From positions 1 to 23,173 of the IMG/VR virus record IMGVR_UViG_3300044695_001340: a stretch of DNA of 23,173 nt, one strand, 5' to 3'. Within the stretch, counting starts at the first letter, position 1. Every line of letters starts with the position of its first letter. The notes beneath the pieces are model-generated. The model did no database searches. It worked only from the letters and a program-made list of their open reading frames with translations, and was not told where the DNA came from. The stretch is from a virus. Shown here one piece after another: positions 4,421-17,866 of the stretch. The translations under genes were made by a program, and so were the position numbers.

Positions 4421-5941
4421 TCAAGCTCCCATCCAAGAAGTTTGTAAACTATTAGTTGATTGACTACGGCGCTTTGGTTCTGCGTACTCTCGGTGCGCGA
4501 CGGGGAATGCAAACGTCACGCATATAGCATCTGCTGCATCAGGCGAGGCTAGGCCCCGCGCTTTCATGTCCTTCTTAGACTCTAAAAAGATCGTACCTTT
4601 AGAGTCGGGCTTCATTACTGGTGATATTAAATCAGTTTTAAGTATCCTGTCACTAGGAATCGACGCGGTTTTCAACCAATTTCGCATATCACCCCACATC
4701 TGAGCCCTTAAATTACCATACATCAGCGGATTTTTGGACTTATTGCCAAAATTGACCCCTCTTATCTTGTAGCGTTGTTCTTTTAGCCGGTCAACGACCC
4801 CACCACCAACGCCGCCTTCGTCGATCACCACTAACGCGGGCTTATATTCCTCAATACACTCAATGACATGGCCCACCACGGTCATCGTATCGTCGCCTTT
4901 GAAGCGTTTAATGCCAATAATGTCACGCCCTTGGCGTATGGCGATCACGGTTGAGTCAGAACCGAACCGTGCAGGGTCAACGCCCACAATAATGGGGGCG
5001 GACAGGTCTTTGAGCCGTGGCCGACGCATGGCTTCATCAACGATAGATGATGATATAAACTGATCATCACCCGCAGAGGGAAAGTCACCGTAGACTTCGA
5101 CCGCAGCTTGTGATGAATCGGCGCCATATTCGTCGATGATCTGCTGGTAGACTGCCTTGTCCGTACCCTCAACCGTGCGCGCGTCCACAATCTTGGTGTT
5201 CCAAAAGTCACGCTTGGAGTTGTGGCATTCGTAGAAGTAACCGGTGTTGCGGCGCGGGTTAGAGAACGCCAACCAAAAGCGGTTAGGCGTGTTCTCGGTA
5301 AAGAAACCAGCGGTCACCGCCCAAATAGCGTCATCAATACCTGATGCCTCATCAAAGATCACCATCACGCCGTCGTAGTTGTGGACGCCCGCGTACGCGT
5401 CAGGGTTCTCGCTTGACCACAGTCTGCCCTCAACCGACCAATAGCGTGTGCCTTTCTTTAGGTCACGCTCGACTAGTTCTGTAATCCACTTGGCGGGCAT
5501 GAGCCGTGTGGCGCTGACCTCAAACCAATGTGAATTAAGTGACATGGCAAGCCACTTGGTAATCTCTGCCCAGGTGACTGAGCGTAATTGTGATTCTGAG
5601 TTGGCTGAGATGATGGTCGTTGAACCAATCCGTGTGGAGAGCATCCACAAGGTGAGCCAACTGACTAAGGCTGACTTGCCAATACCGCGACCGGATGATG
5701 TCGCCATGCGGAACGTGTCAAAGTCAACCTTGCCGCCGTTCTGCTTAATGTGTGCGGTCAGGTCGGACAGCACTTCGCGTTGCCAACGGCGTGGGCCGGA
5801 GAAGTTTTCTAAGGGCGTACCCTTCTGACCCCAGGGGAACGCATAAAGTACAAACGCTAGTGGGTCATCCTTGATCTTGGGCGACCAAAGACGGCTCATA
5901 AGAGCCATTTCTTCGGTTGCGCTGTACTGTGTCGTTTGCAT
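4421..5941 (-). CDS. Terminase large subunit (packaging ATPase and nuclease)
   Basis: This motor protein pumps DNA into the prohead and cuts the concatemer. The 506-residue sequence has both domains. ATPase: Walker A SSGRGIGKSA at about 82-91 and Walker B VMVIFDEAS at about 192-200 with E198 as the likely catalytic Glu, followed by a coupling region. Nuclease (RNase H-like): D322 in VGVDPARFGSDS, D374 in ALVVIDEGG, and an acidic pair in ASPDAADAI (D468, D471). The length and motif order are normal for TerL. Its ATG overlaps the upstream stop as TGATG, and the small terminase gene lies two genes upstream, the usual order. Confidence 0.96.
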   Translation of the reverse strand: MQTTQYSATEEMALMSRLWSPKIKDDPLAFVLYAFPWGQKGTPLENFSGPRRWQREVLSDLTAHIKQNGGKVDFDTFRMATSSGRGIGKSALVSWLTLWMLSTRIGSTTIISANSESQLRSVTWAEITKWLAMSLNSHWFEVSATRLMPAKWITELVERDLKKGTRYWSVEGRLWSSENPDAYAGVHNYDGVMVIFDEASGIDDAIWAVTAGFFTENTPNRFWLAFSNPRRNTGYFYECHNSKRDFWNTKIVDARTVEGTDKAVYQQIIDEYGADSSQAAVEVYGDFPSAGDDQFISSSIVDEAMRRPRLKDLSAPIIVGVDPARFGSDSTVIAIRQGRDIIGIKRFKGDDTMTVVGHVIECIEEYKPALVVIDEGGVGGGVVDRLKEQRYKIRGVNFGNKSKNPLMYGNLRAQMWGDMRNWLKTASIPSDRILKTDLISPVMKPDSKGTIFLESKKDMKARGLASPDAADAICVTFAFPVAHREYAEPKRRSQSTNSLQTSWMGA

Positions 5942-6408
5942 CAGAACTTCTTGGTGTAGCGGGCGTTGACGTTAAACATACCGCGCGGGCCGTACATACC
6001 GCCAATATCTAAATTACCGCCGTTACCAAGGTTAGTGTTAAACCCCGCGTCTAACCCAGGCATAATTTGAATGGTGCCGTCAGGCATTCGCACCATTACG
6101 CCCGAAGCACCTGCGCGTAGGTTGTCACCCTGGTAACCGCCGCGCGCCATTAGTGTGTCAGGTGTAAATTCTGCAATCTGTCCGTTAGGCATTGGCATAT
6201 TGTATCCGCCCGAAGTACCTTGAACCATACCTTGAAATGGCGATTGACGGCTAGGTTGTTCACCCATCATAGTTGGGCGCCCACCCATGTCACCCGACAT
6301 ATTAAGTTCTTGATCTAGCAAAAACAGTTTGCGCCGATCTTCAGGTGTCATGTCCTCTAGAGAGAAGCGCAGCATATTTAGATTCTTGGGCATTAGTTCG
6401 TTGGCCAT
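5941..6408 (-). CDS. Gly/Met-rich protein of unknown function between terminase genes
   Basis: A 155-residue protein. The N-terminal 40 residues look helical and charged (MTPEDRRKLFLLDQEL). The middle is Gly, Met and Gln rich. The last 40 residues alternate like beta strands (GGNLDIGGMYGPRGMFNVNA) and end RYTKKF, with a terminal Phe as in outer-membrane beta-barrel proteins. The ATG at 6408 has GGAG seven bases upstream; it lies 68 bases inside the small terminase gene, in another frame. A later start (6351) would shorten the overlap but lacks a ribosome site. I do not recognise the family. A virion or connector role is plausible from its position only. Confidence 0.75.
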   Translation of the reverse strand: MANELMPKNLNMLRFSLEDMTPEDRRKLFLLDQELNMSGDMGGRPTMMGEQPSRQSPFQGMVQGTSGGYNMPMPNGQIAEFTPDTLMARGGYQGDNLRAGASGVMVRMPDGTIQIMPGLDAGFNTNLGNGGNLDIGGMYGPRGMFNVNARYTKKF

Positions 6409-6817
6409 TGCCGGACTCCATATCTATAGTTAACCGTTGTTCGGCTTGCTCAAGCGCGGTGATGATGCTGATCTGTTGCGTCACGTCCACCTGCACTTGT
6501 TGCTTGGCCACCCAATCGTGTTTGTGTTTCAAGAACTCTAACGCCATCTTAGCGTCGCCGCCAACGGCCGCGTCATACACGACTTGCGACATGGTCGCTT
6601 CCGCTTCCGCACGGCCTTGCATGGCGGCAAGTTCAACAACAGGGTCTAGCTGGCAGAGTTTACGAAACTCTTCGGGCATCATGCCAGCCCGTAACGCCAA
6701 GGCGTCGTTGGACAAGCCTAACTTTGCGGCTTCGTATACGCGCAACAAACGCGACTCGGTGGCGCGGACTTCGCGGGGTGTGAAGTGTAGAGATAGCATT
6801 TTGCGATTGTAGGTCAT
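6341..6817 (-). CDS. Probable terminase small subunit
   Basis: A 158-residue, largely helical protein. Residues about 24-52 (VYEAAKLGLSNDALALRAGM then PEEFRKLC) form a helix-turn-helix-like segment, followed by a long helical region (AAMQGRAEAEATMSQVVYDA) and GGDAKMALEFLKHKHDW, a pattern seen in many small terminases. The small subunit recognises phage DNA and hands it to TerL, encoded two genes downstream. No Shine-Dalgarno site precedes the ATG at 6817, but an exact minus-strand TATAAT lies 11 bases upstream, so the mRNA leader could be only a few bases. The repeat-rich region next to it may hold the site it binds (inference). The assignment rests on motif and position. Confidence 0.85.
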   Translation of the reverse strand: MTYNRKMLSLHFTPREVRATESRLLRVYEAAKLGLSNDALALRAGMMPEEFRKLCQLDPVVELAAMQGRAEAEATMSQVVYDAAVGGDAKMALEFLKHKHDWVAKQQVQVDVTQQISIITALEQAEQRLTIDMESGNGQRTNAQESKYAALLSRGHDT

Positions 6818-6828
6818 GTCGGCAATTT

Positions 6829-6834
6829 ATTATA
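6829..6834 (-). promoter_or_regulatory. Candidate -10 box for the leftward virion module
   Basis: Read on the minus strand, 6834-6829 is TATAAT, a perfect sigma-70-type -10 hexamer, preceded by an A/T-rich tract. No good -35 hexamer is seen at 16-18 bases (the best fit is TTATGC). Transcription from it would start about 3-5 bases before the small terminase ATG, giving an almost leaderless mRNA. Confidence 0.4.
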
Positions 6835-6972: not shown

Positions 6973-6992
6973 AACATCGCCGTGTGCCTGGC

Positions 6993-7027
6993 GAGCTGTC
7001 GAGCTGTCGAGCTGTCGAGCTGTCGAG
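6993..7027. repeat. Tandem GAGCTGTC repeat (four copies plus GAG)
   Basis: Four exact head-to-tail copies of the 8-mer GAGCTGTC occupy 6993-7024, followed by a partial GAG. Each unit contains AGCT. The array ends 5 bases before the first 18-bp repeat of the next array. Possible roles are protein binding or simple slippage expansion. Confidence 0.9.
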
Positions 7028-7032
7028 TGGTG

Positions 7033-7147
7033 CTCACTAAGTCTTAGCCACTCACTAAGTCTTAGCCATACTCACTAAGTCTTAGCACTAAGATTTAGTG
7101 AGTGGCTCACTAAGTCTTAGCCACTAATGCTCACTAAGTCTTAGCCA
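7033..7147. repeat. Iteron-like array: five direct copies plus one inverted copy of CTCACTAAGTCTTAGCCA
   Basis: Exact 18-mers lie at 7033-7050, 7051-7068, 7106-7123 and 7130-7147. A copy at 7071-7086 matches over 16 bases, and an inverted copy with one change lies at 7087-7102 (ACTAAGATTTAGTGAG). Each unit holds the dyad CTAAG-T-CTTAG, so each is a possible site for a dimeric protein. Spacing is 18 and 20 bases on the left and 24 on the right, with the inverted unit in the middle. Such arrays are typical of origins (initiator iterons), operators, or terminase recognition sites. There are no spacers of equal unique length, so this is not a CRISPR. Confidence 0.92.
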
Positions 7148-7237
7148 CTAAGTTTCCCTTGAAGGTCATGTAGGCAATGAGGGCAATGCCCACAAAGTCC
7201 ACTGGACTGCTACGTTGTGCGTGCGCCAACTGCGCCG

Positions 7238-7267
7238 ACATATATACTACTGTACATATATACAGTA
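7238..7267. repeat. Direct and inverted repeats in the AT-rich part of the intergenic region
   Basis: ACATATATAC occurs at 7238-7247 and again at 7254-7263. Overlapping the second copy is a perfect 7-base inverted repeat, TACTGTA (7248-7254) and TACAGTA (7261-7267), around CATATA. It looks like an operator. The flanking 7240-7320 stretch is strongly AT-rich and could also serve as a melting region. Confidence 0.65.
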
Positions 7268-7419
7268 TTTTATAAAAATATCTTTATTAACTATTACTAT
7301 TACCTTTATTACCCTACAAAGCACATAAACCGATAATTTATAAAGCATTTTTTGAAAGCACTTCGCGCCTTTTTGCGTTGCCTTTTCATTACCCTTAAAT
7401 GCCTTACATTTTTAACAAA

Positions 7420-8232: not shown

Positions 8233-8814
8233 ATGAAAATCACTTTTAAAACATCTTTCCTGTTTGCCGCGCTCGAGTGCTCTGCTAAAAAAGACATTCG
8301 TTATTACTTGCAAGGTATCAATATTCAAATTACTAAGCCGTTTACCGGCATGGTTTACGGCACCGACGGCCATATACTTTTTGCGGGCCAATTGCCTTAT
8401 GACGGCGCCGTTGACGTGCCCTTAAACCTAATTATCCCTACCGACGCCGTTAAGCGCTTGGACAAAAAATTAGATTTTACCGAGCTCGAGTACGACGGCC
8501 AAAACTATATGCTCGGCGGCGCGCGCTTTGTGCCCGTCGACGGCCGTTATCCTGATATTGGCCGCGTTATCCCCCAAATTGACCACAACACCGAGCAAGC
8601 GCCAGGCACCTATAACCCTGACTTGCTAGTACGCGGCCGCGCGGCACTGTCGCTGTATCTCGGCGTTAAGCCAAAAGATACATTCAATTTCATTCAGCGC
8701 GGATCTGATAGCGCCGTGATGCACGCCGGCGTTAATACTTGTTTAGTGGTTGTAATGCCCATGCGAGCCGGCCACGAGGCGCCCTACGCCGGCTTTAACC
8801 GCGATTTCATGTAA
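8233..8814 (+). CDS. Shortened DNA polymerase III beta-clamp-like protein
   Basis: At 193 residues this is about half of E. coli DnaN (366), and it aligns by eye with DnaN from domain II onward. DIRYYLQGI (21-29) matches DVRYYLNGM; GTDGHIL (43-49) matches ATDGHRL; LIIPTDAVKRL (66-76) matches the VIVPRKGVIEL strand-helix; PVDGRYPDIGRVIP (101-114) matches LVDGRFPDYRRVLP; VVVMPMR (172-178) matches the DnaN C-terminal VVMPMRL that shapes the client-binding pocket. Domain I is absent and domain III is shortened. A sliding clamp tethers DNA polymerase to DNA. It is encoded apart from the PolA-type polymerase of this phage. Ribosome site: CACTAAGG. It could form a ring of more subunits or act by binding host clamp partners (inference). 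Confidence 0.82.
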   Translation: MKITFKTSFLFAALECSAKKDIRYYLQGINIQITKPFTGMVYGTDGHILFAGQLPYDGAVDVPLNLIIPTDAVKRLDKKLDFTELEYDGQNYMLGGARFVPVDGRYPDIGRVIPQIDHNTEQAPGTYNPDLLVRGRAALSLYLGVKPKDTFNFIQRGSDSAVMHAGVNTCLVVVMPMRAGHEAPYAGFNRDFM

Positions 8815-10230: not shown

Positions 10231-10253
10231 AGCCCGCTTAGGCGGGCTTTTTT
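10231..10253 (+). terminator. Intrinsic terminator of the rightward operon
   Basis: AGCCCGC-TTAG-GCGGGCT forms a perfect 7-bp stem (10231-10248) followed by a run of six T (10248-10253). It closes the rightward operon. The stop codon of the primase-helicase gene on the other strand lies inside the hairpin. On that strand the hairpin is not followed by U, so it should act one way only. Confidence 0.93.
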
Positions 10254-12541
10254 ATTGGTGTAACGCTAGCCAACGGTGTACCGGCGCGCACTACCAAGCC
10301 CTCAGCCATTACGCGCAGCTCTGACTTTTTATGGCCCACCATATCAGGCGCACAATAGACTTGCTTTTTAGTGGTGAGCTCACGCGTGGCTAGGCGCCCA
10401 CAGTCGAACCAACTGCACTCGAGTAGCGCGTGCAATAGGGCGCCCTGGCTCACCTTATAGGTGCCTGGGGCGTTGAGTGATAGCGTGTCACAGATAACGT
10501 GAAACGGCGACGCGATAACGCCCTGCGCGAACACCCCTCTACGCTCGCGGATCATATCGACTAGGTAACTTTCATTTGCGCTCATACCCTGTTCGATCAG
10601 GGTTAACTTAAATTCGGTAACAGGGGGCGCGGCCGACGGGTTAAACGCGCTTACGTCGCGCTGGGCCAGCCACGCGGCGCACGCGGCCACGCCACCACGG
10701 GCAAACCATGACCATATTTTCGCGCTCACCTCGGGGGCCATACGGGGGGCGTTTGATTTAAGGGCAAACCAACGCCGATCCTGACTATCAAGGGTAATGG
10801 GCACCGCGTCATTACTAAACGCCAGTACCATACACCTGTTCACCATATCGTACGGTTTCAGGCCTTTACGATTGATCGACAGATACTCAGGGGGCGCGGC
10901 GATAATCGGCTTTAATTTGTTTGCTAACGCGCGACGATCCTTGGCGTCGGGTTCGCGTAATTCGTTCAATATCAATATCTCGCTTTCGAGCGCGTAATTA
11001 AACTGCGACGACATAGTGTCAGAATCAAGCAAGCCACGGTTAACCGCGTTATCCCCACACACGGCCCATATAAACGGGTGCCACATAGTGTCTTTGCCCG
11101 AACCCTGTACGCCGGTATGTAGCACCGCGTGATTGATCTTGGTTTGCGGGTGTTGCAGTTTATAGGCCATGACGTTAAAACAATGCTCGAGCGTATCCGC
11201 GTCGGGCACTAGGTGCCTACAATGATCTAGCCACGGGGTAATGTCGCCCGCTATGGCCACGGGCCGAGCATCGCGCCACCTATTGCCGTACACGTCACCG
11301 CCTCGGCTAACCAAAACGGTATCGCCGGCCGCGTACGTTATCCCCACCAACGCGGGGGCGCCGTTTTCTTGTCTTAATTCATCAAAACAGACTGAGGCCT
11401 CAATATGTCGGCCGGTTCTAACTGATTTACAAATGACGTGCCGGTATAGCGCGTTAAACGTGCCCCGCGCAATCTCGCGCCGGTCTTGCATATCAAAGTA
11501 ACTGTCGTCGGATTGAATGTAAGCAAAACGGGCAAACCACTCGCGTTTTTGTACGCGCCCGAGCTCTCGGTTTTCAATCTCGGTTTGGCGCTTTTTAACG
11601 TCATCAGGAAATGCGGCCGTGGGGGCGATAATTTCATAGGCCTTGGCCATTGTCTTGGCTAGCAGTTCGTCGCGTAGACCTGGGGCCGCGCTCGGCCCGC
11701 CTTGGCCTTCGACCCATTCAAGAAAGATATGGCTGTCAAGTTGCAAGCAATGGCTGTGCAAGCAACAGTACGCGCGCATAGACGGGTTGTACCGCCCTTG
11801 CGGGTTACCGTCTGTGTGTTCGTGCGCATTGGGGCAAACGACACCCGCCCAGCCCTCGCTATTGGGGCGACTAATGACAAGGCTATTCTCGGCCAACCAC
11901 GCAAAAATGTTATCGGTACCGTCGTCGTCTATCTTGATCGGGCGGTACGCGTTGGATTCGACGGGGCCGGAAGTCACCCCGAACGCGCCCATGATCTGCG
12001 GCAAACTAAACTCACGGGTAGGATGAAACTCGGTCAGGATCGACTTGAACCCGTTGCGCTCGGGCTTGAGGTTAACGCTCCCTGGTATCCTAAAATTCCG
12101 CACCGCATTACACGCGCCCTTGTCGGTGTAACCGGCCTCGGCTATGGCCTTGATCGCAGCGCTAAAGACTTGGTGCGTGGGTTGATCGTCTAGGGCAAAG
12201 GTATAGCCCCATTGGAAGTTATCGGGGGAGGTTTCGATCTTCCAAGTGGGCTCAAGCGGGGGCGCTTTCGATTTGGTGCCCACGTCATCAAGTACAAGAA
12301 AAGCAACATGGTCGCAATTGTGAATCGACGCGCTCGGTTTACTCTTAAACCGATCAACGACAAATGAGGCTGTATTGGCGTACCACGCGCCGCCTTCTTT
12401 GTACTCATGGGGGTAAAAGGCTGGCCATGTCGCCTTAATCGTGCCATCGGCGTGTTGTTCTTTTCCAACAGGCTTTTGCTTGACTAATAGACAAGTTTCA
12501 CCCTCGGGGGCGACTTTTGAAATATAATCGACGAAGTCCAA
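10238..12541 (-). CDS. Primase-helicase (RepB/prim-pol-like N-terminus, SF3-type helicase C-terminus)
   Basis: A 767-residue replication protein. Residues about 70-165 resemble RepB/prim-pol-type primase domains: HNCDHVAFLVLDDVGTK with an acidic pair (D85, D86), TSPDNFQWGYTF and AVRNFRIPGSVNLKP. A zinc-ribbon-like patch follows (C236, H240, C259, C260, H262, H264, C265). The helicase domain has Walker A GVQGSGKDT (477-485), Walker B EILILNE (521-527), a sensor FSND (575-578) and an arginine finger DRRWF (588-592), as in D5-like/DUF5906 helicases. It would unwind the fork and lay primers for the polymerase encoded just upstream. The start is TTG, set by a strong AAGGAG seven bases away. It is the last gene of the leftward replication module and ends inside the opposing terminator. 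Confidence 0.9.
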   Translation of the reverse strand: MDFVDYISKVAPEGETCLLVKQKPVGKEQHADGTIKATWPAFYPHEYKEGGAWYANTASFVVDRFKSKPSASIHNCDHVAFLVLDDVGTKSKAPPLEPTWKIETSPDNFQWGYTFALDDQPTHQVFSAAIKAIAEAGYTDKGACNAVRNFRIPGSVNLKPERNGFKSILTEFHPTREFSLPQIMGAFGVTSGPVESNAYRPIKIDDDGTDNIFAWLAENSLVISRPNSEGWAGVVCPNAHEHTDGNPQGRYNPSMRAYCCLHSHCLQLDSHIFLEWVEGQGGPSAAPGLRDELLAKTMAKAYEIIAPTAAFPDDVKKRQTEIENRELGRVQKREWFARFAYIQSDDSYFDMQDRREIARGTFNALYRHVICKSVRTGRHIEASVCFDELRQENGAPALVGITYAAGDTVLVSRGGDVYGNRWRDARPVAIAGDITPWLDHCRHLVPDADTLEHCFNVMAYKLQHPQTKINHAVLHTGVQGSGKDTMWHPFIWAVCGDNAVNRGLLDSDTMSSQFNYALESEILILNELREPDAKDRRALANKLKPIIAAPPEYLSINRKGLKPYDMVNRCMVLAFSNDAVPITLDSQDRRWFALKSNAPRMAPEVSAKIWSWFARGGVAACAAWLAQRDVSAFNPSAAPPVTEFKLTLIEQGMSANESYLVDMIRERRGVFAQGVIASPFHVICDTLSLNAPGTYKVSQGALLHALLECSWFDCGRLATRELTTKKQVYCAPDMVGHKKSELRVMAEGLVVRAGTPLASVTPIKKPA

Positions 12542-16208: not shown

Positions 16209-17297
16209 TTAGATTAGTTTTAGGTTTGCAAGTTGCCTACCTAGGTTAATAACCGCTGGCCTTGGATCAGAGTCCGCAGCCAACGTACTGCCCGAGCTAA
16301 CGCTTACAGCTACGTCAGCCGGAAAGTTCTTTTTGCCGATAATTTTCTCGGCTTGCGCGACAGAGATTAGCTTACTTTCGTAAGCCTTGTCGCCTAGTAA
16401 TTTCACCGGCGCTTCATCGTTCACCCATTGACGTACGCCGCGCTTGGCGACCAACTTAAAGCCTGGCACTTTGACGTTGTTCTCAAGCATATCGTATGCC
16501 AATACACGCACCGAATCAATCCATTCTTCAAGCAGATCAGCTTGGGTGAGGTACTCGCTTATCTTCTCAGCATCGACACGCACAAGCGCGGTCTTGAGCG
16601 CACGATCAACGGCACCGGTTACTTTAGGGCAAGTAGGTTTGGCTGCACACCACCGGCAATGCTCACCGGTGTCCATTTTAGTGCGAGGGCCGTTGACCGC
16701 AGCAATCAAATCAAACTCAAACTTAGCGATACGCTCGGGCGTTGTCACCCAACGCTTCACCATCGGCGGTTGAACAATGATGATTTCAATTTCCTCAACG
16801 TCCTCAAACACCCATTGAGTTTCCGGCGTACGCATGGCAGCCGCAGCGTAGAACATACCCTGTTCGTTCTCAGTTGCCTCGACAGCCACGCCGTTGCCAA
16901 ACTTCCAATCCAACACAATTGCCTTCTTGCCGATCCGGCCAAGTAGGTCAGCACTTCCAAACACGCCTGGCAGAAGATCACCAAAGTTGACGCTGCTTTC
17001 CACAGCAAACTCCATTTGCTTATCGGGATCAATTTCATCCAACGCCGCAAGCGCCACAAGAATCTTGTCATCGTACAACTCCTGCGTGAGAGTAATGCCT
17101 TCGTAGGTCATGCCAATCACAGACTCAGGCGTAGCCTTGCAGTCAAGGATTTGACTAATGGCGTCGTGTAAGAGTGTACCTTCGTCAGCGTACTTGCTGC
17201 TAGGCAGTTTAGGCATCTTAGCGACCATGTCGATACTAGCAGGGCAAGCGATAACGCGTTTGGCGGTTGAGCCACCTACGATAGTTGAGTGAATCAT
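16209..17297 (-). CDS. DUF2800-type RecB/Cas4-like nuclease with four-Cys cluster
   Basis: A 362-residue protein of the PD-(D/E)XK superfamily. Visible motifs: GTLLHDAI with H44, VFGSADLLG with D117, IVLDWKFG with D130 and K132, and the QGMFYAAA motif with Q146, the standard RecB/Cas4 order. C18 (in VIACPAS) and the later C214, C217, C223 (CRWCAAKPTC) match the layout of iron-sulfur-cluster nucleases such as Cas4 and AddB, so a [4Fe-4S] cluster is likely. It would resect DNA ends or process replication intermediates. It is the first gene of the leftward replication module, with AGGAGA upstream of the ATG and a divergent promoter region behind it. The DUF2800 label is from memory. Confidence 0.88.
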   Translation of the reverse strand: MIHSTIVGGSTAKRVIACPASIDMVAKMPKLPSSKYADEGTLLHDAISQILDCKATPESVIGMTYEGITLTQELYDDKILVALAALDEIDPDKQMEFAVESSVNFGDLLPGVFGSADLLGRIGKKAIVLDWKFGNGVAVEATENEQGMFYAAAAMRTPETQWVFEDVEEIEIIIVQPPMVKRWVTTPERIAKFEFDLIAAVNGPRTKMDTGEHCRWCAAKPTCPKVTGAVDRALKTALVRVDAEKISEYLTQADLLEEWIDSVRVLAYDMLENNVKVPGFKLVAKRGVRQWVNDEAPVKLLGDKAYESKLISVAQAEKIIGKKNFPADVAVSVSSGSTLAADSDPRPAVINLGRQLANLKLI

Positions 17298-17324
17298 AGT
17301 GTAATCTCCTGTTTAGAAATTTAA

Positions 17325-17354
17325 TTGTACACGATTTTTTGCTTGTGATATACT
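17325..17354 (+). promoter_or_regulatory. Candidate sigma-70-type promoter for the rightward module
   Basis: TTGTAC (17325-17330) and TATACT (17349-17354) are 18 bases apart, with TG one base before the -10 (TGATATACT, extended -10). Predicted start is near 17361, giving a short leader with AAAGGAG before the ATG at 17378. The region also must hold the promoter for the divergent nuclease gene; on the minus strand only a TACAAT stands out. Confidence 0.6.
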
Positions 17355-17377
17355 TTTTTACATGAAAGGAGAAATAA

Positions 17378-17866
17378 ATGGACGCAGCCACTTTAAAATC
17401 GTTGTTGGTACTCAATTCGGCTACAGGCGAATTTATTTGGAAAGCTAGACCTGGTATTGCCAGAAACGACCGTGCGGGGAAAATTGCAGGCAAAAAACGA
17501 AAAGATGGTTATGTAGATATTTGTATTAACCGAAAATTATATTTAGCCCATCGTTTAGTTTGGCTTTATGTTTATGGTAACTGGCCGCCTCATCAAATAG
17601 ATCATATCAACCGCGATCGCACTAATAATAGAATACACAATTTACGGTTAGCAACACCCGCACAAAACGCGCAAAATAGAACAATAGCTAAAAATAATAA
17701 GTCAGGTTTTACAGGCGTATTTTTATATTCATGCGGTAAACATGGAGCTTTTATAACTAAAGATAAAAAACGTATTTATTTAGGGCTATACGATACTTTA
17801 GAAGAAGCGCGACAAGTTAGGTCAAATGCTCAAAATTCAATGTTTACTCATGCGGGCGCATTGTGA
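17378..17866 (+). CDS. HNH endonuclease with C-terminal AP2-like domain
   Basis: A 162-residue protein of the HNH_3/AP2 homing-endonuclease type. The HNH part is HQIDHINRDRTNNRIHNLRL (72-91), with D75, H76, N84 and N88, preceded by AHRLVWLYVYG. The C-terminal part (KSGFTGVFL...KRIYLGLYDTLEEA, about 108-144) has the AP2 DNA-binding pattern. Such enzymes cut a specific site and spread by repair. It is distinctly more AT-rich than the following genes, which marks recent arrival. It overlaps the VRR-NUC gene by GTGA and takes the promoter-proximal place, so the downstream genes may now depend on the promoter and coupling it carries. Confidence 0.92.
   Translation: MDAATLKSLLVLNSATGEFIWKARPGIARNDRAGKIAGKKRKDGYVDICINRKLYLAHRLVWLYVYGNWPPHQIDHINRDRTNNRIHNLRLATPAQNAQNRTIAKNNKSGFTGVFLYSCGKHGAFITKDKKRIYLGLYDTLEEARQVRSNAQNSMFTHAGAL

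Follow-up and report, generated by a model that had tools for sequence, protein, structure and literature searches.

Organization of the region upstream of terS

The window analyzed here is the whole of a 23,173-base virus record. Its phage was assigned to a P22-like podovirus family by TerL, portal and synteny, and the nearest named records, MW202483 and DSL-LC05, are both metagenomic. Rfam and tRNA searches of the window gave no match. The features that concern us lie in and around the intergenic region between the late (terS-terL) and the early operons:

4421..5941, minus strand: TerL (phrog_2, E 1.8e-41; 68-79% identical to the annotated TerL of DSL-LC05 and MW202483)
6341..6817, minus strand: probable TerS, from its position, an HTH-plus-helices model and a C-terminal segment in common with the Sf6-type TerS of relative L008
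6829..6834, minus strand: TATAAT-like box, presumed late promoter -10, found by eye 13 nt before the terS start codon
6880..6905, minus strand: G-rich element (GGGGTAGGG...GGGCCC), widespread upstream of terS in the family
6988..7027, no strand assigned: five tandem CTGTCGAG units, part of a hypervariable slot
7033..7147, both strands: 15-mer array (class B), five direct copies of CTCACTAAGTCTTAG and one inverted copy
7033-7047, 7051-7065, 7071-7085, 7106-7120 and 7130-7144, plus strand: the direct copies, all exact
7088-7102, minus strand: the inverted copy CTCACTAAATCTTAG, with one change
7161..7187, minus strand: head-to-tail 9-mers (class A), ATTGCCCTC (7179-7187), ATTGCCTAC (7170-7178) and ATGACCTTC (7161-7169), proposed as initiator iterons
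About 7237..7360, no strand assigned: AT-rich stretch, candidate unwinding element, 77% A+T versus 50% for the window
7248..7267, plus strand: LexA-like palindrome TACTGTACATATATACAGTA, inside the AT-rich stretch
10238..12541, minus strand: primase-helicase, proposed replication initiator, with a RepB_primase-like N-terminus (below cut-off) and a DUF5906 SF3-type helicase
10349..10579, minus strand: predicted winged-helix segment (residues ~655-731) in the AlphaFold model
10382..10384, minus strand: codon of Arg720 in the wing, which covaried with base 9 of the 9-mers

An earlier, sequence-only reading had drawn attention to the array at 7033-7147 as five direct copies and one inverted copy of an 18-bp unit. 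The array and its copies were confirmed. The full 18-mer, ending in CCA, was present in only four of the five direct copies; the copy at 7071 lacked this end. The dyad ascribed to every copy was broken in the inverted one (CTAAGATTTAG), and the spacing, described as regular, was irregular (starts 18, 20, 17, 18 and 24 apart). The array was indeed unlikely to have arisen by chance. Allowing at most one mismatch, the core CTAAGNCTTAG occurred six times in the window, every time inside the array; in 100 shuffles the mean was 0.43, and six was never reached. No copy of the 15-mer lay outside 7033-7147 in the entire record.

The same reading had placed the array beside an AT-rich stretch, as was found, and next to terS. 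The array began 216 nt upstream of the terS start (6817), with the five CTGTCGAG units and the G-rich element in between. On the early-gene side it was flanked by the degenerate 9-mers and by the AT-rich stretch with the LexA-like palindrome.

Of 120 relatives, 41 had the LexA core CTGT-N8-ACAG upstream of terS, versus 1.6 expected in shuffles. This suggested LexA control of the early genes or of the origin. Where a different terS lay at another place, the G-rich element was still present ahead of terL. Within it, GGGNAGGG lay at most 170 nt from terS in 91 of 124 relatives; this motif resembles the FtsK-orienting KOPS motif of E. coli. A promoter scan of the window did not report the TATAAT-like box at 6829-6834.

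The GC-skew switch that had been suggested as a check on the array was not seen consistently at the array or origin region, in the window or in other genomes. The cumulative skew of the window had its minimum near 17.3 kb (about 17000-17400), at a divergent gene pair, and other genomes disagreed on the position. For the product of 8233-8814, elsewhere in the window, the best PHROG match was a RusA-like resolvase; a further match, to the beta clamp of DNA polymerase III (TIGR00663, E 2.3e-6), raises the possibility of a shortened sliding clamp.

Distribution of the 15-mer among relatives

TerL and several primase-helicases served as queries to draw relatives from IMG/VR as whole contigs, and all exact copies of the 15-mer were sought in the same collection. 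The bearers were P22-like phages, for the most part from freshwater. Loci within bacterial assemblies belonged chiefly to MAGs of freshwater type, labelled Rhodoferax, Burkholderiales or Methylococcaceae; the host assignment from these labels is weak, because the loci may be binned phage contigs. One contig with this phage type (L132) was 92,900 bases long, complete relatives being 36-39 kb, and is possibly a chimeric or concatenated assembly.

Exact 15-mers were found at 77 loci, of which 62 were from the family of the window. Wherever terS was in view in these family loci, a copy lay 122-370 nt upstream of its start. The remaining loci were one short multi-copy fragment and 14 single copies in unrelated contigs, the latter roughly the chance expectation. 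Relatives carried one to eight copies. Spacings of 18, 20, 22-25 and 35 dominated, and no clear 10.5-base period of helical phasing was detected.

Across 122 distinct contexts, the base preceding the 15-mer was a purine in 96%, and the following base was never A. Among near copies, 17 of 19 were changed at position 9. The invariance of the 15 bases was partly by construction, the profile having been seeded with exact matches; the near-copy pattern and the flanking preferences were not products of this seeding. These patterns point to sharp edges, like those of a protein-binding site.

The 15-mer was absent, even with one mismatch allowed, from L144 (TerS 96% identical) and L143 (TerS 92%), and from L130, L135 and L181 (primase-helicase 97% identical). 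It was identical in L224 and its kin despite identities of 54% for TerS and 57% for the primase-helicase. Conservation among related phages, proposed earlier as a check, was mixed, the 15-mer being kept in 62 family loci and missing from these five phages. The slot of the sisters without it was occupied by other repeats, GC-rich and unrelated, and L129 carried two 15-mers followed by this GC-rich kind. The expectation that relatives with the same genes would have repeats at this place thus held for repeats as such and failed for this particular one.

As single-stranded DNA, the array of the window folded better than shuffles (z -4.0), as did that of L224 (z -12.3). The substitute slot of L144 folded no better (z -0.35). 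Hairpin formation was rejected as a function common to all occupants of the slot, as it was seen in bearers and not in L144.

No partner of the array emerged from the searches. A search for a gene specific to the bearers turned up only shadow ORFs, and no segment of the primase-helicase was shared specifically by them. No bacterial genome with the array was found in the genome collection searched. The 15-mer was also missing from the 401 genomes searched from the bacterial family to which one host MAG (Rhodoferax) belongs, and a host regulator sharing this strict consensus is accordingly less likely.

Sequence comparison shows that the array is real and specific to the family, that it has sharp bounds and is exchangeable, and that it follows neither TerS nor the primase-helicase. 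It would be an element of its own, in which copies of a bounded 15-bp site are clustered in an exchangeable slot, with the 9-mers on one side and the terS promoter on the other. Our preferred reading, to which we give somewhat less than an even chance, is that the array binds a sequence-specific regulator and serves the late promoter or the origin as a multi-site operator or enhancer. Clustered, bounded 15-bp sites do lie near a presumed promoter, that of terS, identified by eye only. An operator had been one of the three functions offered by the sequence-only reading, and it is the best remaining fit for the array, although the searches for a bearer-specific gene and in the 401 genomes came back empty.

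The main rival is a palindromic repeat with no regulatory function, selfish or maintained by recombination, which expands and shrinks in a tolerant spacer. Its rapid changes in copy number, orientation and presence would be expected from such a repeat, as would the unrelated repeats in the sister slots and the folding of the arrays of the window and L224 above shuffles. On the other hand, fifteen exact positions, defined edges in 122 contexts and variation nearly confined to position 9 argue for sequence recognition, with the reservation that this sharpness is partly ascertainment from exact-match seeding. The array is also confined to one place in the genome, and the sister slot at z -0.35 did not share its folding. 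We consider a non-functional repeat possible and, on balance, unlikely.

9-mer repeats beside the AT-rich stretch

The window contained one exact 9-mer (ATTGCCTAC) and two degenerate copies. Clean ATTGCCTAC repeats were present in the close relatives L131, L133 and L138, and head-to-tail 9-mers occurred in the same region in nearly the whole phage family, often in opposite orientations to either side of the AT-rich stretch. Short direct repeats beside such a stretch, as at SF3 origins, were thus found in most relatives, those of the window being partly degenerate.

The 9-mers had the general form ATnnCCnAC, and the units differed between close relatives. They included ATTGCCTAC, ATGACCTAC, ATGACCCAA, ATTGTCCAC, ATAGCCAAC, ACTGCCAAC and others. 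At 6815-6826 of the window, the terS start codon was inside a 9-mer-like sequence (ATTGCCGAC ATGACCTAC), indicating that iteron-like repeats run into the terS start.

Certain 9-mers resemble DnaA boxes. DnaA boxes as a family-wide reading were rejected, PF08299 being present in only one of 40 records. A stand-alone DnaA domain IV protein was encoded in L088 at 25082-25378 (MW202483 31423-31719; PF08299, E 3.4e-19) and was absent from the other family members searched.

Covariation of the 9-mers with the primase-helicase

The element encoded an SF3/D5-type helicase. The primase-helicase matched DUF5906 (E 4.5e-14), a primase PHROG (E 3.3e-20) and the NrS-1 helicase (E 2.2e-9). Its predicted winged helix had the order helix-strand-helix-helix-strand-strand, with confidence mostly above 80-90 per 10-residue block. 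Foldseek gave no significant match to this model (best E 0.25); the best of the non-significant matches were mostly winged-helix DNA-binding proteins, with a replication terminator and PadR-like proteins among them. Residue 720 fell in the loop joining the last two strands, which follow the putative recognition helix.

In 40 phages, the primase-helicase gave the best correlation with distances between 9-mer units, and its C-terminal part the best within the protein. The partial Mantel correlation with the C-terminus, given TerS, TerL and PolA, was 0.36 (p 0.0005), and the C-terminal part kept a partial correlation of 0.22 given the rest of the protein. TerS gave a partial r of -0.15, although terS is the nearer gene.

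In a column-wise scan, residue 720 stood out. Arg at this position went with 9-mers ending in C, and Gly, Ser, Ala or Val with 9-mers ending in A, T or G. Examples are Arg720 with ATTGCCTAC (the window), Gly720 with ATGACCCAA (L046) and Ala720 with ATTGCCAAT (L160). In the first 54 phages, all 43 with Arg had C at base 9 and all 11 without Arg had another base. On a tree made from the rest of the protein, residue 720 changed five times and base 9 five times. The joint character also changed five times, so that the switches coincided.

A new set of 119 phages then served to test the rule, and 117 agreed (Arg with C in 66, another residue with another base in 51); base 9 was omitted from the register-setting pattern in this test and was included in the first set. 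The two misses, L439 and L440, had called units ATATCCACA and ATATCCATA. These resemble ATTATCCAC in another register and look like register errors. A second pairing, Lys718 with C at base 7, held in 14 of 14 cases in the first set and in 31 of 35 in the new one.

L135 is a natural recombinant. Its primase-helicase was 96.5% identical to that of the window, and its wing and its 9-mers were both of a G005-like type. Taken together, the comparisons indicate that the 9-mers are matched to the C-terminus of the primase-helicase.

Such a correlation could stem from common descent or linkage instead of recognition, the phages being related and the 9-mers and the primase-helicase gene lying within 6 kb. 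We regard this as quite improbable. TerS is closer to the 9-mers and showed no such partial correlation. The five coincident switches were seen on a tree built without the C-terminus, the wing and 9-mers of L135 were both of the other type despite the near identity of the protein, and the rule held in 117 of the 119 further phages.

Terminase genes and replacement of TerS

A fold search with TerS gave weak matches only, the PaP3 small terminase among them. Three relatives, L007, L008 and L012, had TerL 96-98% identical and an Sf6-type TerS on the other strand a few kb away (in L008, PF20901, E 1.2e-22). The C-terminal QISI..ALEQAE segment of TerS was kept. They also had a different replication module and no array, and they kept the G-rich element before terL. 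We interpreted these phages as carrying a natural TerS swap.

A candidate origin with a proposed accessory array

The 1-kb intergenic region would be a replication origin joined to the control region of the late promoter. In the proposed mechanism, the initiator sites are the head-to-tail 9-mers beside the AT-rich stretch. The SF3 primase-helicase encoded by the phage itself would bind them through its C-terminal winged helix and then load on the AT-rich stretch. From the covariation, an origin at this place and binding of the 9-mers by the primase-helicase are likely. Analogy with SaPI Rep, SCCmec Cch2 and P4 alpha also points to the 9-mers as origin iterons read by the winged helix. We put the probability of the whole, an SF3-helicase origin of the P4/SaPI type plus an exchangeable accessory 15-mer array, at about 0.6.

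The sequence-only reading had offered the array itself as initiator iterons. The region does look origin-like, and the direct repeats of the array lie close to an AT-rich stretch, with the gene of an SF3 primase-helicase at a distance of 3 kb. The 15-mer was not, however, present wherever the same initiator was; it was missing from L130, L135 and L181 with 97% identity and unchanged at 57%. The protein is tracked by the neighboring 9-mers and not by the 15-mer unit. Judged by distribution, iterons bound by the primase-helicase are largely refuted as an account of the array, and we consider them very improbable.

The third function offered, a pac or cosB-like terminase recognition site bound by TerS, is hardly credible, since the array did not accompany the same TerS (L144 and L143 lacked it at 96% and 92% identity, and L224 had it at 54%). 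Complete contigs were circular with only assembler-length overlaps and gave no fixed end here. The array is always within 370 nt upstream of terS, and the three phages with the replaced Sf6-type TerS lack it; this loss does not discriminate, because their replication module changed too. Being absent alongside near-identical TerS or primase-helicase and present at about 55% identity, the array is neither a terminase site nor an essential initiator iteron. We interpreted it as optional and accessory.

The natural variation was enough to give residue-to-base rules, and these predicted new cases. One may speculate that the near one-residue code (residue 720 paired with base 9, Lys718 paired with base 7) determines the origin that a primase-helicase can fire and defines replication-compatibility groups in sympatric phages, the 15-mer arrays being a second, independent label read by a phage or satellite factor; we consider this rather improbable. 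The locus also illustrates how a conspicuous repeat near terS can mislead. The visible array was dispensable, and short, partly degenerate 9-mers carried the signal of specificity.

Comparison with known systems

In lambda cosB and SPP1 pac, repeats upstream of or near terS bind TerS. Unlike these, the 15-mer array was missing from phages with nearly identical TerS.

The Vibrio cholerae satellite PLE has semi-palindromic direct repeats in its origin, which are bound by RepA, a RepA_N protein (PMC7145576). The likeness of the 15-mer array to these iterons is superficial, and the array tracks no replication protein here.

By sequence, the closest solved relative of the helicase part was the NrS-1 primase-polymerase (PDB 6k9c/6k9e; E 2.2e-9, residues 448-597), likewise a phage replication protein with a helicase domain. 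NrS-1 is reported to use a recognition sequence of 8 nt, found in two copies (PMC7102993), and that paper describes no iteron array.

In P4, the alpha protein combines primase, SF3 helicase and origin recognition (as cited in PMC9611036). The protein of the window likewise joins primase and SF3 helicase with proposed origin recognition. The iteron sequence and the genome context differ from those of P4, and the likeness to alpha is one of function.

According to the account in PMC7581432, which cites Ubeda et al. (2007), SaPI Rep and SCCmec Cch2 are D5/SF3-type self-loading helicases whose C-terminal domain reads the origin iterons. The 9-mers of the present family similarly track the C-terminus of a D5/SF3-type helicase. 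The present case differs in belonging to a P22-like phage and in having primase and helicase joined in one protein; its 9-mers sit next to terS, about 3 kb away from the primase-helicase gene, and the system is predicted from sequence. Iteron origins read by a helicase C-terminus are thus already known from satellites and mobile elements, and the present analysis places a probable counterpart in a large uncultured P22-like family.
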